Assembly: GCF_900637665.1 (NCBI RefSeq)
Contig: NZ_LR134386.1
Coordinates: forward strand, 372,001-436,000
Length of the DNA: 64,000 bases
Reading direction: 5' to 3'
Origin: Chryseobacterium nakagawai
GTDB lineage: Bacteria; Bacteroidota; Bacteroidia; Flavobacteriales; Weeksellaceae
The notes beneath the pieces were generated by a model. The model was not told the origin of the DNA. It made no database searches and saw only the letters and a program-made list of their open reading frames with translations. Shown here piece after piece: positions 25,952 through 35,321 of the stretch. The translations under genes were made by a program, and so were the position numbers. Within the stretch, counting starts at the first letter, position 1. Each line of letters opens with the position of its first letter.

Positions 25952-26137
25952 TTAGAGATCTCCTGTACATGAATCACATTCTTTCAATGGATAGATCCAT
26001 GTGCCACTATCCTCATTAAAAAAAGGTTGAGTTCTGCATCCGATTTTTCTTACCCCATTGTCATCAATATAAAAACATTGATCAGGGCGGATTCCACCAT
26101 TAATTTTGGCCGTTTCTTTTCTTGCTAATTTTTTCAT
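25952..26137 (-). CDS. Bacteriocin-like peptide with GG leader (copy 1)
   Basis: A 61-residue precursor. MKKLARKETAKINGG is a double-glycine-type leader of the kind found on many small Chryseobacterium peptides; cleavage after G15 would give a 46-residue product with Cys at 21, 34, 54 and 57. It is a paralogue of the gene at 26190, and their upstream sequences also match. No C39 peptidase transporter or modification enzyme is in the window, so export and maturation are unknown. Confidence 0.8.
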   Translation of the reverse strand: MKKLARKETAKINGGIRPDQCFYIDDNGVRKIGCRTQPFFNEDSGTWIYPLKECDSCTGDL

Positions 26138-26189
26138 GTTGTTTTAATTTGAAGGTAAATGGAATTAGTTTAATTGTCTTTATTCATTT

Positions 26190-26384
26190 TTAAAGATCAG
26201 TAACTGTACATGGTTGGCATGCGTATTCAGGATTTGGATAAATCCATCCTCCACAACAGTCTGGAATGGGGCCTAATTGGCATCCAAGTTTTCTCTTGCC
26301 TGTGTTAGGATCAGTGTAAAAGCATTGTCCCGGTGCGATTCCACCATTGATTTTAGCTGTTTCTTTTCTGGTTAGCTTTTTCAT
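26190..26384 (-). CDS. Bacteriocin-like peptide with GG leader (copy 2)
   Basis: A 64-residue precursor with leader MKKLTRKETAKINGG. The predicted 49-residue mature part has six Cys (21, 35, 43, 44, 56, 59), two more than its neighbour; QCFY, KRKLGC and GGWIYP align with the copy at 25952. A TACATTTG box upstream (26408-26415) probably drives both genes. Antimicrobial activity is inferred from the leader alone. Confidence 0.8.
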   Translation of the reverse strand: MKKLTRKETAKINGGIAPGQCFYTDPNTGKRKLGCQLGPIPDCCGGWIYPNPEYACQPCTVTDL

Positions 26385-27589: not shown

Positions 27590-28510
27590 TTAACTTTCAA
27601 GATAGCGATTTAAAGATTCCTGAAGATGATTGCGGATGTCGTCAACTAAACCTTTCGGTTCTAGCACGGTGACTTCTTTTCCATAGGATAAAAGTTCCTG
27701 CATAAAATCATAAGTAGGATGAAGGAAAAACTCAAAATAGATCTCTTCCGGAGTTTCTTTAGTCTCTTTTTGTGACTGATGAAGCGGGAAGCTTCTAATG
27801 TATTCTCCCTGATGGCGGCTGCATTTTAATACAATGTTCTGCGGCTTCTGTTCTGCCAGGTTCATCACTCCAAAAGCATTTTTAAAATGCTCTCTGAAGT
27901 TATATTTATACTTTTCTCTGAACTGATTTTTAGCCACATCCAGATAATTGATTCTGTCTAATCCAAACGATTTTAAAATTTTATCCTTAGTGTCAATCGC
28001 AATAAGATACCATCTGTCTTTGGATTCTTTTAAAGCCAAAGGATGGACCTTTCGGGAGGTCATCAGTTTATTTTTATAATTGTAATGTTCAAAAGTAACC
28101 ACTCTTTTGTTACGGATGGCAAAGAACAAATCATAAAAATGCTCTATACCAGTTGGTTTACGGCTTTCAAAGAAAATGAAATTTGAAAAATCAGGGTGAA
28201 GATTCAGGGCGTTGCTTACCTGGAAAGATTCCAAAAGTTTTTGGTTATACTCATCCACTTCCATGATGGGGCGGCTTTCAATATAATACCGGTTGTCACC
28301 TTTTTTCTTATTGTGAATGGAAAGGTTGAAAAGGTCGGAAATCTCACGAATATCTCTCTGCAAGGTACGGATAGAATAACTTTTGATCCCGGCATCCTGG
28401 AATTCAAAAGAATTTAATAGATAGTCTTCCAACTGGGAATAGGTAGCCGGAGAACTTTCTAATCTTTTAATAATTAAGGCATATCTTGTCAGATAAAAAT
28501 CTTTCTTCAT
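27590..28510 (-). CDS. WYL-domain transcriptional regulator (HTH-WYL-WCX)
   Basis: A 306-residue regulator. The N-terminus (about residues 1-75) is a winged helix with IRTLQRDIREISDLF as the recognition part. The WYL domain follows (FFAIRNKRVVTFEHYNY, and HPLALKESKDRWYLIAID holding the RWYL core), and a C-terminal WCX-like part. WYL domains sense ligands, in several cases single-stranded DNA, in regulators such as BrxR, CapW, PafBC and DriD. The start is ATG 28510 (MKKDFYLTRYAL) because a GTG at 28528 lies in the -7 box. Its own promoter carries the operator shared with the genes to the right, so it is probably autoregulated. Confidence 0.9.
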   Translation of the reverse strand: MKKDFYLTRYALIIKRLESSPATYSQLEDYLLNSFEFQDAGIKSYSIRTLQRDIREISDLFNLSIHNKKKGDNRYYIESRPIMEVDEYNQKLLESFQVSNALNLHPDFSNFIFFESRKPTGIEHFYDLFFAIRNKRVVTFEHYNYKNKLMTSRKVHPLALKESKDRWYLIAIDTKDKILKSFGLDRINYLDVAKNQFREKYKYNFREHFKNAFGVMNLAEQKPQNIVLKCSRHQGEYIRSFPLHQSQKETKETPEEIYFEFFLHPTYDFMQELLSYGKEVTVLEPKGLVDDIRNHLQESLNRYLES

Positions 28511-28527
28511 GGTAAAATTTTGTACCA

Positions 28528-28563
28528 CAAATATATGGGCTTAATGCGACAAAACGTGTCGTG
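28528..28563 (-). promoter_or_regulatory. Promoter and operator copy a (WYL gene)
   Basis: -7 box TATATTTG (minus strand, 28528-28535), ten bases, then operator GCGACAAAACGTGTCGTG (28546-28563, + strand reading). Its core is the inverted repeat CGACA-N5-TGTCG. Confidence 0.8.
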
Positions 28564-28587
28564 TTTTATTTTTTTGTGATGAAGTTT

Positions 28588-28623
28588 GAAAAATAATAAG
28601 CCACAGAAACCCTGTGGCTTATT
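28588..28623 (-). terminator. Terminator ahead of the WYL promoter
   Basis: 12-bp stem AATAAGCCACAG (28595-28606) / CTGTGGCTTATT (28612-28623), T-rich on the minus strand side. It ends the leftward transcript coming from 29162. Confidence 0.8.
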
Positions 28624-28867
28624 CCATATTCTAATATTTATTTTCAGAATAAATTTTGAAGCTTTACAAGATCGCTTCAGGATCTTAGGCCTTGTTTTAT
28701 TTGGTCGTAGGCCGAATTTCCACAGGTGTGTTATATTTTCAGACATCGTTCTGGCTGTCCAACATTTGTGAATGGTGATTCAAAGGCGTTGAGAATGTTT
28801 AATGAGACTGCTGGGTGCATGATAGAGAGTAATGACGGACAGCATCAGAACTTGTCATATTTTTTAT
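28624..28867 (-). other. Long 3' untranslated stretch with a possible structured RNA
   Basis: About 240 bases with no credible gene between the 56-residue ORF and its terminator. GTTCTGGCTGTCC (28748-28760) can pair with GGACAGCATCAGAAC (28837-28851, one bulge), and AACATT (28761-28766) with AATGTT (28794-28799) inside it. Confidence 0.35.
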
Positions 28868-29038
28868 TTAAAAGGGATCTTCTTCCAGGATATCTTCATC
28901 AAAATCTTGTCTGAAGAAATTTTCAATGTCATTGAGATAGTTTTCATAATCCATCTCTGCATTTTCGATGTCACTCCATTCCACGGTGTAGAGATCTTCA
29001 TCGAAGAGTATATCTGTATTGTGATTGGATGTTTCCAT
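28868..29038 (-). CDS. Small very acidic protein (56 residues)
   Basis: Not a known family. From ATG 29038 the product METSNHNTDILFDEDLY and onward has about 20 Asp/Glu and one Arg in 56 residues, with aromatic residues between. The frame extends to a TTG at 29116, but the ATG is preferred. Such composition occurs in DNA mimics and in anti-regulators, which is only a guess here. The transcript starts at an operator-bearing promoter (29167-29202), giving a leader of about 120 bases. A second frame (28864-29097) encodes a basic 77-residue peptide and was judged less likely. Confidence 0.55.
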   Translation of the reverse strand: METSNHNTDILFDEDLYTVEWSDIENAEMDYENYLNDIENFFRQDFDEDILEEDPF

Positions 29039-29166
29039 GTTTTGTATTGTGATTTGGTGTTGGTTGTGTTTTGAACATACTTTAGGTTGCTCAGCATAGA
29101 TCAATATTGAATTCAAAGGCTTTTTAAAGTTTTTTATTAATTGTTTTTGTGCTCTTGTTTATATTT

Positions 29167-29202
29167 CAAAGGTAATAGAGGGTGGCGTCAAAACTTGACG
29201 TA
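29167..29202 (-). promoter_or_regulatory. Promoter and operator copy b (small acidic protein)
   Basis: -7 box TACCTTTG (minus strand, 29167-29174), ten bases, then operator GCGTCAAAACTTGACGTA (29185-29202), core CGTCA-N5-TGACG. Confidence 0.8.
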
Positions 29203-29237
29203 TAAAAAAATAACTCAAAAGAATTTTGAGTTATTTT
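29203..29237 (-). terminator. Terminator of the DUF2589 operon
   Basis: 14-bp stem AAAATAACTCAAAA (29207-29220) / TTTTGAGTTATTTT (29224-29237), loop GAA, then a T-run on the minus strand that runs straight into operator b. Confidence 0.85.
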
Positions 29238-29242
29238 AGTTT

Positions 29243-29797
29243 TTAAGAAAAATCGTTAATATCTATTTCATCAGCAATAAGCATAATGATGTCCATTTCA
29301 GAAAGCATTGATTTGAGTTTGATGCCTCCTAATTTTAAATCATTATCAGAAAGGATATGGCACCAGACTTTCTGTACAAAATCTTCAAATGTTATTTCTG
29401 AAGTATAAAGCGGGCTTGTTGTTTGTGCTGCTAAAGCCAGGATTTGCTTGGTGATATCTCTGCATTCATTCATTTTTGTTTCATGAGGCAGTAACACATT
29501 AAGCACACAGTTTTGCGCATCGTGAAGAAGATTTGCGGTAACCTTGAGCTGGTTTTTTTTAGCATTAAAACTTCTTTCATCACTGATTTTACCTGCCAGG
29601 ATCTTACTTCTGAAACCGGCTATTTCCGAAACTTCACTAATGGTGTTCGTAGAAAGAATATTCTCTACAGACTTCAGCCATGAAAGCATTTTCTCAACAA
29701 AAAAAAGATCTTTTTTCTCCAACGAAGAAACAATAGCTGGAAATTCCAGCAGCTGATCCTTTAGCTGGGAAACTAAAATAAACTGTGACTTTTTCAT
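29243..29797 (-). CDS. Hypothetical protein, last gene of the DUF2589 operon
   Basis: Not recognised. 184 residues, helical, no signal peptide or membrane segment. It begins 4 bases after the stop of the gene at 29802, so the two are translated from one message. The terminator begins 5 bases past its stop. Its role must be read from its neighbours: a DUF2589 protein and another unknown gene under the WYL operator. Confidence 0.7.
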   Translation of the reverse strand: MKKSQFILVSQLKDQLLEFPAIVSSLEKKDLFFVEKMLSWLKSVENILSTNTISEVSEIAGFRSKILAGKISDERSFNAKKNQLKVTANLLHDAQNCVLNVLLPHETKMNECRDITKQILALAAQTTSPLYTSEITFEDFVQKVWCHILSDNDLKLGGIKLKSMLSEMDIIMLIADEIDINDFS

Positions 29798-29801
29798 TCT
29801 A

Positions 29802-30485
29802 TTATTCAGGGATAAGCGTTTCTATAATATTTCCATTGATATCCTCATATCTCGACCATTCCATTCCTGCTTCACTCACACTCATTTTAGCGAAAATCAG
29901 GCATTTGGCATCCAGTTGCATTAATTTGCTTGCCTCTACAATAATCTCCCGGTTATCTATCTTTTCAATAACTCTTCTGGCTTCCAAAACAATCCTGTTG
30001 AAAAGGTTTTGCTGTAAAAGCTGGGGATCTGTATTCTTCCATGTAAAATTGGGAAGAGAACGACAGTATTCTACTGTATATTTTGAAATAGGTTCAAAAT
30101 ACTGTATTTGAGTATCGGTGAGCGTCGGTTTGTTTTCAGACTTAATCTTCGTTATATAATCATTATAACTAAACTCCTGATTGGCTAGGAAATTTCTTAA
30201 ATTCTGATCATTTTTAGTATCAGAAGCATTATAATCCGTTGAGGCAACTTTGGTAATTTCTTCATAAGAAAAATCTTTGAAAAGCAAGATAGGGGAGCTT
30301 CCTGCTGTAGCAAAAGGAATAGTAAGATCTACTGTCCCCACTTTCATTCTTGGAATGGAAAAATGTTTCAATAAATCATCTTTAGCATATTCTTTTGCAA
30401 TTTGTACAGTCTGTAAGTCTGTCATTTTTCTGGCTGCGGCAATTTCAGAGACAATACCTCCTAAATATTCATTCAATTTTGGCAT
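29802..30485 (-). CDS. Hypothetical protein, middle gene of the DUF2589 operon
   Basis: Not recognised. 227 residues, no signal peptide. The N-terminus (MPKLNEYLGGIVSEIAAAR) looks like an amphipathic helix, followed by a segment VGTVDLTIPFA resembling the beta-strand repeats of the adjacent DUF2589 protein, then a helical C-terminal half. It could be a partner of that protein. It is separated from it by a strong hairpin (30521-30546) and has no promoter box of its own. Confidence 0.7.
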   Translation of the reverse strand: MPKLNEYLGGIVSEIAAARKMTDLQTVQIAKEYAKDDLLKHFSIPRMKVGTVDLTIPFATAGSSPILLFKDFSYEEITKVASTDYNASDTKNDQNLRNFLANQEFSYNDYITKIKSENKPTLTDTQIQYFEPISKYTVEYCRSLPNFTWKNTDPQLLQQNLFNRIVLEARRVIEKIDNREIIVEASKLMQLDAKCLIFAKMSVSEAGMEWSRYEDINGNIIETLIPE

Positions 30486-30514
30486 GATAAGTTTTTTTTA
30501 ATTGATAAAGATTT

Positions 30515-30546
30515 TTTAAAAGGATGGCTGCCGGAGCAACCATCCT
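30515..30546 (-). terminator. Hairpin inside the DUF2589 operon, possible partial terminator
   Basis: 11-bp stem AGGATGGCTGC (30521-30531) / GCAACCATCCT (30536-30546) with one G-U pair, followed on the minus strand by TTTT. No promoter follows, so it must allow read-through to the next two genes. Confidence 0.65.
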
Positions 30547-30554
30547 GAAAATAA

Positions 30555-31127
30555 TTAAGTAGTAGTTACCGGTGCTGCGGAAGCAACAATAGCATCTTCT
30601 AACATATCCATAATTTTTGAAAGCCCTGCAGGTAATTCGTCATTTACAGCTTTTACATGTACGCCCAACGTATACGTTTTTTCCGTAGTTGAAGTACTTG
30701 AGTTGGTTTTCTTATAAGAAGCTGAAGCATTGAATTTAACTTTCCAGAATTTAGCGCTGATAGAAGCACTTCCCTGGAATTCACTAGCAATACTCTGAGT
30801 TTCTACAGAATTAAGCTTGGCGTTAAAATCAATAGTCATTTCGTCAATTCTTAAAGCCGGAATGGTCAGCATACAAAGTAATGGGACACTTAATTTTACT
30901 TCTGATGTTGTCACACTTTCGTTGTTTTCAGCGGTGCTGGGAACTGACTTTTTATAGATAAAATCTACATATTTAAGCTTTTTAGCTCCTTCTTCAAAGC
31001 CAACTTCTTTAATGAAATTTACTTGCGACATGGATGCGTCATGCTGAGCCTTGATCGCTGCCTGCATAGGTCCTCCGATGTAAACACTGAAATCTAAACT
31101 GTTTAATTCTTGTACTAAATTTGCCAT
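30555..31127 (-). CDS. DUF2589-domain protein
   Basis: 190 residues from MANLVQELNSLDF. IGGPMQAAIKAQHDASMSQVNFI at the N-terminus and the central beta-rich part with LSVPLLCMLTIPALRIDEMTIDFNAKL match the DUF2589 family, whose function is unknown. It has no signal peptide. The frame runs on to 31196, but those residues look like untranslated leader. It is the first gene of an operon under operator c, and a hairpin behind it may raise its level over the two genes that follow. Confidence 0.8.
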   Translation of the reverse strand: MANLVQELNSLDFSVYIGGPMQAAIKAQHDASMSQVNFIKEVGFEEGAKKLKYVDFIYKKSVPSTAENNESVTTSEVKLSVPLLCMLTIPALRIDEMTIDFNAKLNSVETQSIASEFQGSASISAKFWKVKFNASASYKKTNSSTSTTEKTYTLGVHVKAVNDELPAGLSKIMDMLEDAIVASAAPVTTT

Positions 31128-31440
31128 AATTCTAAAAATTTTTAAGGTTATTAATTGGTTAATAATATATAGTAGTGCTAGCAGACTAATATTCAATATT
31201 GGGCAATAGATATCCTGTTCAGTATTTGATGAACAGAAGATTATTAAAAATAATAGGGATAATGTAAGTTTGGAATAAGCTTATTTAGCTTTGGTTTCCT
31301 TGGTTATTTTGTTTATTTAAAGATAGTTGACTCAAGCGTCAAAACTTGTCGTGATATAATTTCTTTTCAATTTTATTACATTTTTGATGAATATTATAAA
31401 CTGATAAGGTCACATGTTTTAATTCGGTGTGAATTTTAAT
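31128..31440. other. Leader and promoter region of the DUF2589 operon
   Basis: No gene. It holds promoter and operator c (31318-31353), a leader of about 190 bases and a palindrome AATAAGCTTATT (31274-31285) whose sequence recurs in the hairpins at 31441-31490. Confidence 0.5.
31318..31353 (-). promoter_or_regulatory. Promoter and operator copy c (DUF2589 operon)
   Basis: -7 box TATCTTTA (minus strand, 31318-31325; last base off consensus), ten bases, then operator GCGTCAAAACTTGTCGTG (31336-31353). Confidence 0.75.
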
Positions 31441-31490
31441 ATAAGCTTAAAAGCTTATTTAGGTTCAATATAAGCTTTTAAGCTTATATT
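31441..31490 (-). terminator. Tandem AAGCTTAT hairpins at the end of the patatin gene
   Basis: Two AT-rich palindromes: ATAAGCTT/AAGCTTAT (31441-31458) and AATATAAGCTT/AAGCTTATATT (31467-31490). The patatin stop codon (31484-31486) is inside the second. They probably end its transcript. Confidence 0.5.
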
Positions 31491-32521
31491 TTGTTTCTGA
31501 TGAGCTTTTGGACAATCTGGTTCAGGACTTCTCTGTTATCATCAATATAGCTTAGTCCGGCTTGTATCAGGTTTTCAATATTAGACCGTCTTACGTTATC
31601 CATGGCTGGAGAAGCGTTTTTCAATGAGGGATTCAAACGGTAATAGTTTTTCTGGTTTCTCAACCCCAAGGTCTGGAACATTTGAGAAAGCTGATAATCT
31701 ACGGTTTCTGCATTGGCAGACATTAAAATATCAATAATGGGATTTACCCAGCCAATTTTTCCTGCCTTTTCGAGTTTATGAAATGAATAAGGCCTCGCTT
31801 CAATTCCGGTTCCTATAGATATGATAATCATATCATTTACTCCGGGATGATTAGCTTTCTGATGATTTTTTAAAACTTCTGCAAAAGGAATTTTTCTGGC
31901 TTCTGCATAAGCACAAAGAGCGGGATTATTCGCAAACATACCTCCATCAATCAGGCTGAAGATTTGCCCATACATTGATTTGATCTGTACCGGGCTGAAA
32001 TAGGTAGGTGCTGCGGATGTTGCCCTGCAAACATCTTTTACATAAAAATTATCTGTACTGAGATGAGCTTCACAGGAATTGAAAAGTTTTGCTCTTCTGT
32101 TCTCTATATCATAACTTGTTATTAAACACGGTTTTATTAATTCCTTTAATTCTAAATTTCCAAAAAAGTCGTTCAGGTTTTTTTGAAGAGCTTCCTGAGA
32201 AATTCTTTCATTCAACAATCCAAATGGATTAACCAGCTTTTCCCAAAAGGAAACCTGGAAGATATCACCGCCCTTTTCAGCATATAATTCCAATCCCTTT
32301 TGGATAGAATATTTTGCTTTACGGACTTCATCAGGACATAGAATAATAGAAGCAATCAGTCCTCCTGTGCTGCTGCCAGCCACCAGATCAAAATAATCCC
32401 CAAGCTTAGCACTTGGTTTATCATAATACTGGAGCTGTTCTTCTATGTAACGCAGAATAATACAGGTAATAATTCCCCTTATTCCGCCTCCGTCCAAAGA
32501 AAGAATGGTTGTCTTTTTCAT
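31484..32521 (-). CDS. Patatin-like phospholipase
   Basis: Ser-Asp dyad lipid acyl hydrolase of 345 residues, no signal peptide, so it would act on membranes from inside the cell. DGGGIRG (10-16) is the oxyanion loop, G49-S-S51-T-G the nucleophile elbow and D192-G-G the catalytic Asp. The layout and size resemble CapV, the phospholipase effector of CBASS, but no cyclic-nucleotide synthase is encoded nearby. It has its own promoter with operator d, linking it to the WYL regulator. Confidence 0.93.
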   Translation of the reverse strand: MKKTTILSLDGGGIRGIITCIILRYIEEQLQYYDKPSAKLGDYFDLVAGSSTGGLIASIILCPDEVRKAKYSIQKGLELYAEKGGDIFQVSFWEKLVNPFGLLNERISQEALQKNLNDFFGNLELKELIKPCLITSYDIENRRAKLFNSCEAHLSTDNFYVKDVCRATSAAPTYFSPVQIKSMYGQIFSLIDGGMFANNPALCAYAEARKIPFAEVLKNHQKANHPGVNDMIIISIGTGIEARPYSFHKLEKAGKIGWVNPIIDILMSANAETVDYQLSQMFQTLGLRNQKNYYRLNPSLKNASPAMDNVRRSNIENLIQAGLSYIDDNREVLNQIVQKLIRNKI

Positions 32522-32650
32522 GTTATTTTGTTAATTATTTTTTTAAGAATACATTGCAATATGATCTTGTGGAATTAGTAATTTTGGGGTCAGAAAAACA
32601 GTGAAATTCCATATTCAGATCTTGTTGCTTTTAGTGGCTTTCTTGTAAAA

Positions 32651-32686
32651 CAAAGGTAGGGCGGGGAAGCGACAGAACTTGACGTA
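32651..32686 (-). promoter_or_regulatory. Promoter and operator copy d (patatin gene)
   Basis: -7 box TACCTTTG (minus strand, 32651-32658), ten bases, then operator GCGACAGAACTTGACGTA (32669-32686). Confidence 0.8.
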
Positions 32687-32712
32687 TTTAAATTAATTTT
32701 AAAGAAAAAAAA

Positions 32713-33213
32713 TTAAAAAACAACATAATTTTTTTGATCTCTAGACATCTTCAAAAGCTTTCTCCAACTGGTTTTTACAGGTCCTTTCTTCGATGGAATT
32801 GTCTTTTTTTCAAAGTGGGGAAGATCTTTAAAAGTTTTCCAGTTTCCACCCCAATCCCAGCCATGTTTTGCAAAGATTTTCACACATTCATACCAGTCTG
32901 CAACCTTATCATTATCCCAGTCTTTTACAGTGTCCCAACTGGCCGTTTTTCCGTCGATCATCAGGCAGATATCTACAGCAAGACCATAATTGTGGATACT
33001 CTGGCCCGCTTTGGCATTGGTTATCTTTTTTCCGGATGTTATTCTTCCAATTGCATAAAGCTTTTCCTGCTCCTCAAAAGATCTTAATCCTTGGGTAATT
33101 CTTATCTTAGCTTTGCCGGTGAGGGCCGCATCACATTCTTTAATAATTTGCTTTACTTCATCTCTTACAAACGGGTGAAGTTCCTGAATTCTCTCTGCTG
33201 TTACTTTATCCAT
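32713..33213 (-). CDS. M15-family peptidoglycan peptidase (endolysin/CwlK-like)
   Basis: Zinc peptidase of 166 residues. SIHNYGLAVD gives zinc ligands H74 and D81, and DLPHFE gives H133; R44 in ITQGLRSFEEQ is also conserved. The closest functional types are L-alanyl-D-glutamate or D-Ala-D-Ala peptidases of phage lysis cassettes and CwlK. There is no signal peptide, as in phage endolysins, so it would need lysis or a holin to reach the wall; none is seen beside it. Operator e lies directly before it, giving a leader of about 10 bases. Confidence 0.9.
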   Translation of the reverse strand: MDKVTAERIQELHPFVRDEVKQIIKECDAALTGKAKIRITQGLRSFEEQEKLYAIGRITSGKKITNAKAGQSIHNYGLAVDICLMIDGKTASWDTVKDWDNDKVADWYECVKIFAKHGWDWGGNWKTFKDLPHFEKKTIPSKKGPVKTSWRKLLKMSRDQKNYVVF

Positions 33214-33230
33214 ATTCTTTTATTATGGAG

Positions 33231-33266
33231 CAAAAGTATAGGGCGGAAGCGACAAAACTTGACGTG
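33231..33266 (-). promoter_or_regulatory. Promoter and operator copy e (M15 peptidase gene)
   Basis: -7 box TACTTTTG (minus strand, 33231-33238), ten bases, then operator GCGACAAAACTTGACGTG (33249-33266). Confidence 0.8.
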
Positions 33267-33663
33267 TATCGAATGAAAAATATTTTATTCTCCCTTTATT
33301 GAGTTTTTTATTTTTAATAAAAATGGCCCCAAGACTTAGTCTTTTGTTGTTTATATTGAGGCTAAATATTGGCGACTGTAAGATGAGTTTGATTAATAAT
33401 TGTCTCTGCAATTCAAGTTTAAAACTTATAAAAATACCATATGCTAGAAAGGGAAGGAAAAAAGGACGTTTAATAAATGGAATTCGAACTTCCTCCTGAG
33501 GATCAGGAGTGATGTTGAGGTGTTATTGTACAGTTCCTATTTAAGTTTTGATAAGATTGAAAAAATGGATGCTAAAATACAGATTGAGTGTATATTTGTA
33601 AGAAATGTTGTCTTCAGATAGATCATGAAGATAATAGAAGGAAAATAAAAAAACACAATATCA
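33267..33663. other. Intergenic region ahead of the antiporter
   Basis: About 400 bases without a convincing gene; a short frame at 33299-33499 has no start context or family likeness. It holds a hairpin CTCCTGA (33493-33499) / TCAGGAG (33503-33509) without a T-run, and the -7 box TATATTTG at 33591-33598. Confidence 0.5.
33591..33598 (+). promoter_or_regulatory. -7 box of the antiporter gene
   Basis: TATATTTG, 65 bases before the ATG at 33664. The bases before it do not carry the WYL operator. Confidence 0.6.
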
Positions 33664-35247
33664 ATGCACACCATTTTACCCTTTTTGTTGGCCATGATAG
33701 CCGCTATTGTATTATTAAATATGTGGGCTGCTAAATTAAAAATCGCTTATCCGATTTTGCTGGTTGTATTTGGACTTCTTGTAAGTTTTATACCTGGTTT
33801 GCCTGCTGTAAAGATCAATCCCGATCTTATCTTTTTTATATTTTTACCCCCACTATTATTTGAGGCTGCCTGGTCCATTTCCTTTAAAGAAATGAAAAGA
33901 TGGTGGCGTATCATTGGAAGCTTTGCTTTCCTGGTTGTATTTTTTACCGCGTTTTCAGTGGCCATTGCTGCCAATTATTTTATTCCGGGATTTACGATTG
34001 CTCTGGGATTTTTATTGGGAGGCATCGTGTCTCCGCCAGATGCTGTAAGTACGGGTGCCATTATGAAATTTGTGAAAATTCCCAATACCACTGCAGCTGT
34101 TTTGGAAGGAGAAAGTTTACTGAATGATGCATCTTCTCTGATTATATTCCGTTTTGCTCTGATTACAGTAGGAACCGGACAATTTGTATGGCAGGAGGCT
34201 TCATTGGATTTTTTATGGATGGTGATCGGAGGGGCAGGAATTGGCCTATTGTTGGCCTGGATTTTTGTACAAGCTCACAAACGACTTCCTACAGATGCTT
34301 CATCAGATATTGCATTGACCCTTATTGAACCCTATCTGATGTACTGGATAGCAGAACAAATTCATTGCTCCGGGGTTTTGGCAGTTGTTTGCGGAGGCCT
34401 GTATATGTCTGCTAAAAGAATGATCTTTTTAAACAGTACAAGTCGTATAAGAGGATATAGCGTATGGGAAAGCTTTGTATTTATTTTGAATGGCATTGTC
34501 TTCTTAATTATCGGACTAGAGCTTCCTGAAATTGTAGGCGGCCTGCGTTCTGAAGGAATAGCTTTAAAGACTGCCATTAATTATGGAGTATTAGTGACTG
34601 TTATTCTTATTGCAGCTAGAATTATAAGCTCCTATGCGGCAATGATTACCACGATTATTTTTCGCCCCTCTGTCGCTCCCAGAGCATCTTCCATGAGAAG
34701 ACGTCTGATGATGCCTATTTTACTTGGATGGACGGGAATGAGGGGAGTGGTATCTCTGGCGGCAGCACTTGCCATTCCTATAACTCTTGAAAATGGAACC
34801 CCTTTTCCAAACAGAAATCTTATCTTATTCATCACTTTTGTAGTGATATTGCTTACTCTTTTGGTTCAAGGGCTTACATTGCCTTATTTTATAAAATATG
34901 GAAAAATATTTGATGACTTTATAGATGAAGAAAAAGAAGAACTGGCCCGTAAAGAAATCAAACAAAAATTAAGACAGCACGTTTATCACTTTCTTAAAAA
35001 CAAACATGAAAGCGAACTTCATAGTGATGCAGGAATAGAACGATTGTTGCGACATTGGGAAGAAAAAAACAAAGCCAATGATGCTGACTGGATGAACGAA
35101 AAATCCAAGGCTGTTTTTATCGAAATGCTTGAAATCCAAAGACAGTTCCTTTCAGAGCTTAATAAAGACGTTTCTGTGAATGAAGAGATTATCCGGCATC
35201 AGCTTTATCAGCTTGACCTGGAGGAAGAACGGTTGAAAATGATTTAA
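33664..35247 (+). CDS. Na+/H+ antiporter, CPA1 family
   Basis: Integral inner-membrane exchanger of 527 residues with about 12 hydrophobic segments up to roughly residue 415, then a hydrophilic cytosolic tail of about 110. FIFLPPLLFEAAW, SPPDAVSTGAIMKF and GESLLNDASSLIIFR (the conserved N-D pair) are CPA1/NhaP hallmarks. It expels Na+ in exchange for protons. It runs opposite to the WYL cluster. Confidence 0.93.
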   Translation: MHTILPFLLAMIAAIVLLNMWAAKLKIAYPILLVVFGLLVSFIPGLPAVKINPDLIFFIFLPPLLFEAAWSISFKEMKRWWRIIGSFAFLVVFFTAFSVAIAANYFIPGFTIALGFLLGGIVSPPDAVSTGAIMKFVKIPNTTAAVLEGESLLNDASSLIIFRFALITVGTGQFVWQEASLDFLWMVIGGAGIGLLLAWIFVQAHKRLPTDASSDIALTLIEPYLMYWIAEQIHCSGVLAVVCGGLYMSAKRMIFLNSTSRIRGYSVWESFVFILNGIVFLIIGLELPEIVGGLRSEGIALKTAINYGVLVTVILIAARIISSYAAMITTIIFRPSVAPRASSMRRRLMMPILLGWTGMRGVVSLAAALAIPITLENGTPFPNRNLILFITFVVILLTLLVQGLTLPYFIKYGKIFDDFIDEEKEELARKEIKQKLRQHVYHFLKNKHESELHSDAGIERLLRHWEEKNKANDADWMNEKSKAVFIEMLEIQRQFLSELNKDVSVNEEIIRHQLYQLDLEEERLKMI

Positions 35248-35285
35248 TCAGCTGTACCGCATTCAATACATGATGTTTTTGTAAA

Positions 35286-35321
35286 CAAAATTAGGATGTT
35301 AATGCGACAAAATATGTCGTA
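35286..35321 (-). promoter_or_regulatory. Promoter and operator copy f (no gene in front)
   Basis: -7 box TAATTTTG (minus strand, 35286-35293), ten bases, then operator GCGACAAAATATGTCGTA (35304-35321), core CGACA-N5-TGTCG. It points leftward into the 3' end of the antiporter gene; no minus-strand ORF follows. Confidence 0.7.

Follow-up and report, generated by a model that had tools for sequence, protein, structure and literature searches.

The WYL locus and its promoter elements

We analyzed a 64,000-nucleotide stretch of Chryseobacterium nakagawai DNA (contig NZ_LR134386.1, positions 372,001 to 436,000), here called the window, in which the gene for a WYL-domain regulator lies close to several copies of one inverted-repeat operator. 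A sequence-only reading of this DNA had proposed six operators (at 28546, 29185, 31336, 32669, 33249 and 35304), each exactly 10 bases from a minus-strand -7 box. It assigned five of them to the WYL regulator, an acidic 56-residue protein, a DUF2589 operon, a patatin-like phospholipase and an M15 peptidase. All six sites fitted the 18-mer with 0 mismatches and had the box at that distance (five exact TAnnTTTG; the box at 31318 is TATCTTTA), and the gene assignments stand. The features of the locus are as follows (HTH, helix-turn-helix).

27590..28510, minus strand: WYL regulator, HTH-WYL-WCX, 306 residues; the ATG at 28510 is used as the start
28528..28562, minus strand: operator, N10 and TATATTTG, predicted promoter of the WYL gene; 0 mismatches
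28842..28859, minus strand: relic operator with 2 mismatches, box lost; aligns with the intact toxin-operon promoter of relatives
28868..29038, minus strand: acidic 56-residue protein, conserved member of the locus; 20 D/E, 1 K/R
29167..29201, minus strand: operator, N10 and TACCTTTG, predicted promoter of the acidic protein; 0 mismatches
29243..29797, minus strand: DUF2589 operon gene 3, 184 residues; no Pfam family
29802..30485, minus strand: DUF2589 operon gene 2, 227 residues; sub-threshold DUF7006 match only
30555..31127, minus strand: DUF2589 protein, operon gene 1; PF11655, 4.1e-32
31318..31352, minus strand: operator, N10 and TATCTTTA, predicted promoter of the DUF2589 operon; 1 mismatch, within the box
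31484..32521, minus strand: patatin-like phospholipase; PF01734, 1.4e-25; GxSxG and DGG present
32651..32685, minus strand: operator, N10 and TACCTTTG, predicted promoter of the patatin gene; 0 mismatches
32713..33213, minus strand: M15 peptidase of phage-endolysin type; PF13539, 1e-19; PHROG 2649 endolysin, 6.2e-30
33231..33265, minus strand: operator, N10 and TACTTTTG, predicted promoter of the M15 gene; 0 mismatches
35286..35320, minus strand: operator, N10 and TAATTTTG, with an NhaP gene between this site and M15; 0 mismatches

Read in promoter sense, the predicted element is ACGWCA-NN-TTYTGWCGY-N10-TAnnTTTG, with a single orientation and a single spacing. Searching the window with the 18-mer at up to 3 mismatches returned 8 matches, against 1.15 expected, and none of 100 dinucleotide shuffles reached 8. 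Across the whole 5.6-Mb genome, the pattern of operator plus box was matched 22 times at up to 2 mismatches, with none in the reversed control, and 24 times when up to 3 were allowed, the control then giving 2. Rfam gave no match between 27000 and 36800 of the window. Neither the patatin nor the M15 peptidase has an obvious signal peptide, as judged by hydropathy and by eye.

A rigid, one-sided promoter geometry

The spacing between operator and box was then measured on sites that had been gathered by the 17-mer alone (up to 1 mismatch), so that the box was not demanded. Two sets were used, overlapping in species and with many sites orthologous: loci fetched for the WYL gene together with the window, and 80 named WYL loci, the best 80 of 145 relatives (78 titled Chryseobacterium, 1 Weeksellaceae and 1 Flavobacterium). 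In the first set, TAnnTTTG stood at offset 10 with at most 1 mismatch in 104 of 104 distinct sites (97 exact); in the second, this was seen for 178 of 181 (165 exact). Between offsets 0 and 39, neither the 104 nor the 181 sites had an exact box anywhere else. On the opposite side and the other strand, an exact box was present in 8/104 sites, every one at offset 4. Moreover, all 181 sites of the named loci run in the same direction as the WYL gene. The element is asymmetric, having TTTTG at its core and an A/T-rich stretch on the upstream side.

This geometry resembles that of a mycobacterial promoter class. The consensus of LexA/RecA-independent mycobacterial promoters is given as tTGTCRgtg - 8 nt - TannnT (PMC5656591), and by our count TGWC sits exactly 12 bases ahead of the TA of the downstream box both in that consensus and in the element described here.

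The element accompanies the WYL gene

The WYL protein matched WYL (PF13280, 3.6e-13, residues 125-191) and WCX (PF25583, 9.2e-9, residues 224-299, from a scan of the translation). Its structure model (predicted local distance difference test score [pLDDT] 82.5) suggests a single-chain HTH-WYL-WCX fold. The nearest solved relatives are PafBC and DriD, which were far closer in profile comparison than BrxR and CapW. It is the one WYL gene among the window's open reading frames (ORFs) from 26 to 37.5 kb; the genome has two more WYL genes, both more than 1 Mb away.

The element was found in the promoter of the WYL gene itself, within 250 bp upstream, in 80/80 loci. In a broader set, 49 of 51 WYL orthologues had it upstream; of the two exceptions, one has the site before the preceding gene (L107) and the other a copy with 3 mismatches (L111). 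Even among distant WYL paralogues (31-38% identity), 7/20 carried the element at up to 2 mismatches. On a quick tree of WYL proteins with long branches, the presence of a site required 8 changes, against a mean of 15.5 after shuffling, and none of 500 shuffles was as low; these 8 changes suggest that the element has been gained or lost repeatedly among paralogues.

We next compared site numbers with the distribution of the WYL orthologue (at least 59% identity) in 197 genomes of the family, a sample of a larger group. The 71 genomes with an orthologue contained 2-34 sites (median, 14; at least 4 sites in 69), whereas the 126 without one had a median of 0 (71 have none, and 6 have at least 4). 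The same was seen within genera. Genus g24 had 2-13 sites with the orthologue (9 genomes) and 0-2 without (14 genomes); for g41 the numbers were 3, 4 and 4 against 0-2 (33 genomes), for g38 11-16 (4 genomes) against 0 and 0, and for g26 5, 6 and 6 against 1-3 (4 genomes). In the own genus, 49 WYL-bearing genomes had 6-34 sites, and G188, the sole genome of 50 without the WYL gene, had 0. Beyond the family, 11 of 167 genomes sampled from the order had 1-5 sites; they include three of genus g80 (2-5 sites), where one site precedes a WYL gene. A plasmid search returned 25 records with WYL proteins, every one below 60% identity.

The element is the putative promoter element cognate to the WYL protein and to some paralogues in the family. 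It is very unlikely that the element belongs to another regulator with the WYL gene as merely one target: this would accommodate the recA site of G105, a genome without a detected WYL domain, the LexA-type HTH of three g26 genomes, and M15, which follows the element as closely as WYL does, but it is opposed by the 80/80 self-promoter sites, by site numbers that track the orthologue within five genera, by paralogues of 33-38% identity that carry the same element, and by the lack of a LexA HTH in the own genome and in 8 of the 11 genomes with a recA site.

Targets in Chryseobacterium and its relatives

The sequence-only reading had expected the site upstream of the same gene families in relatives carrying the WYL gene. 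Indeed, in 69 full-length relative loci, a site preceded M15 in 23/23 and patatin in 23/23 cases where the gene was present, the acidic gene in 25/27 and DUF2589 in 7/9, and site number follows the WYL gene as described above. M15 and the WYL gene were also inherited together: among the 197 genomes, 67 had both, 4 only WYL, 4 only M15 and 122 neither. The patatin matched the PADLOC model 'Effector, Phospholipase' (3.9e-61), whose members we take to be of the CapV type of the cyclic-oligonucleotide-based antiphage signaling system (CBASS). In the same scan of 10 window proteins, the WYL protein matched CRISPR-associated WYL models, and no bacteriophage exclusion (BREX) protein or cyclase was found among the 10.

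Elsewhere in the own genome, four sites precede proteins with a tail for the type IX secretion system (T9SS); an RHS-repeat protein comes next after the one that was scanned, and similar long genes after the rest. Further targets are two DUF285 proteins, three beta-helix-type proteins and a second M15 gene with tandem sites. Of the remaining sites, three precede proteins that have no recognized family or were unscanned, and two have no gene in the flank read. Thus, 9/22 own sites stand before proteins of the T9SS/RHS, DUF285 or beta-helix kinds.

In relatives, variable operons lie between M15/patatin and WYL, encoding CdiA-CT, Tox-MPTase4 or M14 domains or, in genus g24 (L112), an ADP-ribosyltransferase. 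A scan of ORFs upstream (148 clusters overall) covered 100 of the 123 cluster representatives of 100-900 residues, a set that contains bystanders such as glycine-tRNA ligase and a transposase; it identified 7 SMI1/KNR4 (SUKH) immunity proteins, 4 Tox-MPTase4 proteins and 1 each of EndoU, WHH and ADP-ribosyltransferase. The combination that marks polymorphic toxins, variable toxin domains with immunity genes, was therefore found in the loci of relatives and not in the window itself, which has no toxin cassette: the stretch at 28577-28735 stands where G193 has about 7 kb, and the block containing the degenerate site at 28842 aligns with the intact promoter of the G193 operon.

The commonest cargo was a QTLFRFVSLR protein of 1220-1370 residues (clusters of 19 and 16; for example, L097:6465-10538, L154:697-4359 and L253:1395-5180). 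The copies scanned matched no Pfam family, and a profile search gave no credible solved relative (best E value, 0.077). A model of the first 1200 residues of a 1221-residue copy had a pLDDT of 52 and was not used for fold search. The protein is perhaps a delivery component.

The element precedes recA in three sister genera

We also searched the recA loci of 30 chosen genomes, among them G047 and G076, which were picked since the element had already been observed before recA there. In genera g25, g26 and g36, the element was present before recA in 11/11 loci (9 at up to 2 mismatches and 2 at 3); in g36 it precedes a bcp-like gene directly upstream of recA. Three genomes, G048, G076 and G157, combine a recA element (with 3 mismatches in the case of G157) with one in the M15-patatin-WYL locus, and G132 has the element before recA and before its WYL gene.

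Sites were also tallied in six genomes (G047, G075, G076, G081, G149 and G157). Of the 29 sites, 10 were assigned to recombination or repair genes, 4 to hsdM, 4 to WYL genes and 6 to the M15-patatin-WYL locus; 1 precedes a bcp-like gene with an unread neighbor in G081, 1 a Cas6-like gene and 3 nothing recognizable. The genes umuCD, rmuC, sbcD, a RecB-like gene and a DEDD-exonuclease/UvrC gene were found behind the element, each in single genomes. RmuC, HsdM (L303), RecB-like (L305), SbcD, UmuC, UmuD and DEDD-exonuclease/UvrC were confirmed by model; naming was by eye for bcp, cas6, the remaining hsdM copies and the second RecB-like gene. What goes beyond the sequence-only reading is the element before recA in three sister genera and before other repair genes in single genomes.

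As a separate observation, type I restriction systems of g25 and g36 have the element ahead of their hsdM-type genes (L303, L304, L308 and L312), and restriction-modification may therefore be part of the damage response in these genera.

The LexA HTH was absent from 8 of the 11 genomes with a recA site. The own genome also gave no LexA match (PF01726, E value 0.001) in a search that was positive in 10/14 controls.

Comparison with known systems

PafBC is described as a LexA-independent activator (PMC6789036). It shares with the present system a WYL+WCX regulator and, at the P1 (RecA-NDp) promoter of mycobacteria, the TGTC-N12-TA geometry (PMC5656591; N12 by our count). PafBC has recA among its targets; the element described here precedes recA in 11/11 loci of g25, g26 and g36 and in 0/4 loci of the own genus. 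PafBC differs in having two HTH-WYL-WCX modules, with PafB and PafC side by side or fused, and a nonpalindromic motif (PMC6789036), whereas here there is one protein and an inverted repeat, and in Chryseobacterium the targets include toxins. DriD of Caulobacter crescentus resembles the WYL protein in its predicted single-chain HTH-WYL-WCX fold; its gene set is unlike, judging from PDB titles only. BrxR and CapW have the same fold, and their operators are inverted repeats. BrxR is a repressor, and both act as local repressors of one defense operon, unlike the dispersed regulon found here, with no BREX protein or cyclase among the window proteins scanned. Colicins and pyocins offer a functional parallel: there, toxin and lysis genes are under DNA-damage control, and here toxin genes and lysis-type genes follow a DNA-damage-type element. 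The differences are a WYL regulator, a large dispersed gene set and no LexA HTH found in the own genome.

A proposed damage-type activator and its alternatives

Taken together, we consider it probable that the WYL protein is an activator akin to PafBC and DriD, acting at a LexA-independent damage element, and that Chryseobacterium recruited it to a colicin-like arsenal. The sequence-only reading had left open whether the WYL protein blocks the -33 region or replaces it. We infer activation rather than repression from the rigid one-sided geometry, the PafBC-like promoter spacing and the kinship with PafBC and DriD, so that replacement is favored. A nucleic-acid signal, for instance single-stranded DNA, would switch on a dimer of the WYL protein; the dimer would bind the inverted repeat in place of a -33 element and, in the manner of PafBC and DriD, bring housekeeping RNA polymerase to the -7 box. 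The WYL gene would be under positive autoregulation. For g25, g26 and g36, this would amount to a response to DNA damage that does not depend on LexA. In Chryseobacterium, toxins and their immunity proteins would be under the control of this switch, as would surface and T9SS/RHS proteins; the endolysin-type peptidase and the phospholipase, also driven by it, would open the damaged cell and let out the signal-less toxins, following colicin/pyocin logic. Release by lysis is suggested by the type of these genes alone.

The stronger version, in which single-chain WYL activators at a palindromic element of PafBC-like geometry run a LexA-independent SOS response in members of the family and, in Chryseobacterium, have become a switch by which the cell dies to release toxins encoded across its genome, has in our judgment about an even chance. 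The suggestion in the sequence-only reading of a stress-triggered attack on membrane and wall gains from the endolysin family, the phospholipase-effector family and the recA sites of sister genera; it was incomplete in that the regulon is genome-wide.

Several results weigh against this interpretation. In 19 recA loci outside g25, g26 and g36, four of them from the own genus, no element was found with up to 3 mismatches allowed, and the own recA lacks a site, the best candidate having 5 mismatches. No repair gene was present among the 19 first genes read behind the 22 own sites (no gene was read for 3), and 0/19 umuC loci had a site in promoter orientation. G105 has 5 sites, one of them before recA, and no WYL domain at an E value of 0.001. 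A LexA-type HTH was found in 3/11 genomes with a recA site (G076, G125 and G106, all g26). In g36, the lone genome with an orthologue (4 sites) resembles the 13 without (1-5 sites), and site counts in these related genomes are not independent. One structural ranking placed BrxR level with PafBC as a relative of the WYL protein, which also tempers the choice of replacement over blocking. A test for a TTG (-33) at 91 nonregulon TAnnTTTG promoters found no preferred spacing and hence offered no yardstick for 56 regulon promoters. Finally, many targets bear signal peptides and would need no lysis.

Two alternatives address parts of this reading. It is possible, although we regard it as rather doubtful, that M15 and patatin are antibacterial effectors or an abortive-infection pair instead of release genes and that Chryseobacterium responds to a signal other than DNA damage. 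The match of the patatin to defense phospholipase effectors and the position of the own recA outside the regulon fit such a role; the phage-endolysin type of M15, without an obvious signal peptide, and its retention with the regulator in 67/71 genomes though adjoining cargo varies speak for release, and release and abortive infection are not mutually exclusive. We consider it unlikely that the WYL protein represses in the manner of BrxR or CapW, sitting on the -33 region until a signal lifts it, with regulon and targets as described. A repressor has no need for a single exact distance and orientation relative to the -7 box, yet 178/181 sites show both; the PafBC promoter has the same spacing, and PafBC and DriD are far nearer by profile.

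To our knowledge, gene regulation upon DNA damage in LexA-less bacteria is largely open for Bacteroidota. A concrete element, a likely regulator and a testable gene list are now in hand. In this Chryseobacterium, one DNA switch at about twenty places, ahead of genes that resemble those for toxins, surface proteins and cell-opening enzymes, is probably thrown by a single sensor protein, and bacteria with the element may fire their weapons upon DNA damage. If the activator reading is true, the part that LexA plays for colicins is taken by a WYL regulator for Bacteroidota toxins, and new toxin and immunity genes could be sought through the common promoter.

Other observations at the locus

The site at 35304 has no co-oriented gene and aims into the 3' end of the opposite-strand NhaP antiporter gene. 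In L096, which has no NhaP gene at that place, the equivalent site feeds M15. The Na+/H+ antiporter gene (33664-35247) sits between two operators, and L096 has tandem sites before M15; site 35304 may thus now yield antisense RNA to the antiporter. We rejected umuC as a target of this site: in several loci the site is about 117-123 bp from umuC but points away.

The acidic 56-residue protein was found by tblastn in 18 loci (17 genomes), with a site upstream in 17/18; at a guess, it is possibly a regulator. In G012, the full WYL gene is preceded by a short fragment of a WYL gene that has an intact operator (L103:4315-4559), and this suggests cassette duplication at the locus. Finally, two small ORFs at 25952-26384 of the window share a leader, MKKLxRKETAKINGG, ending in GG, and look by eye like bacteriocin-type peptides.

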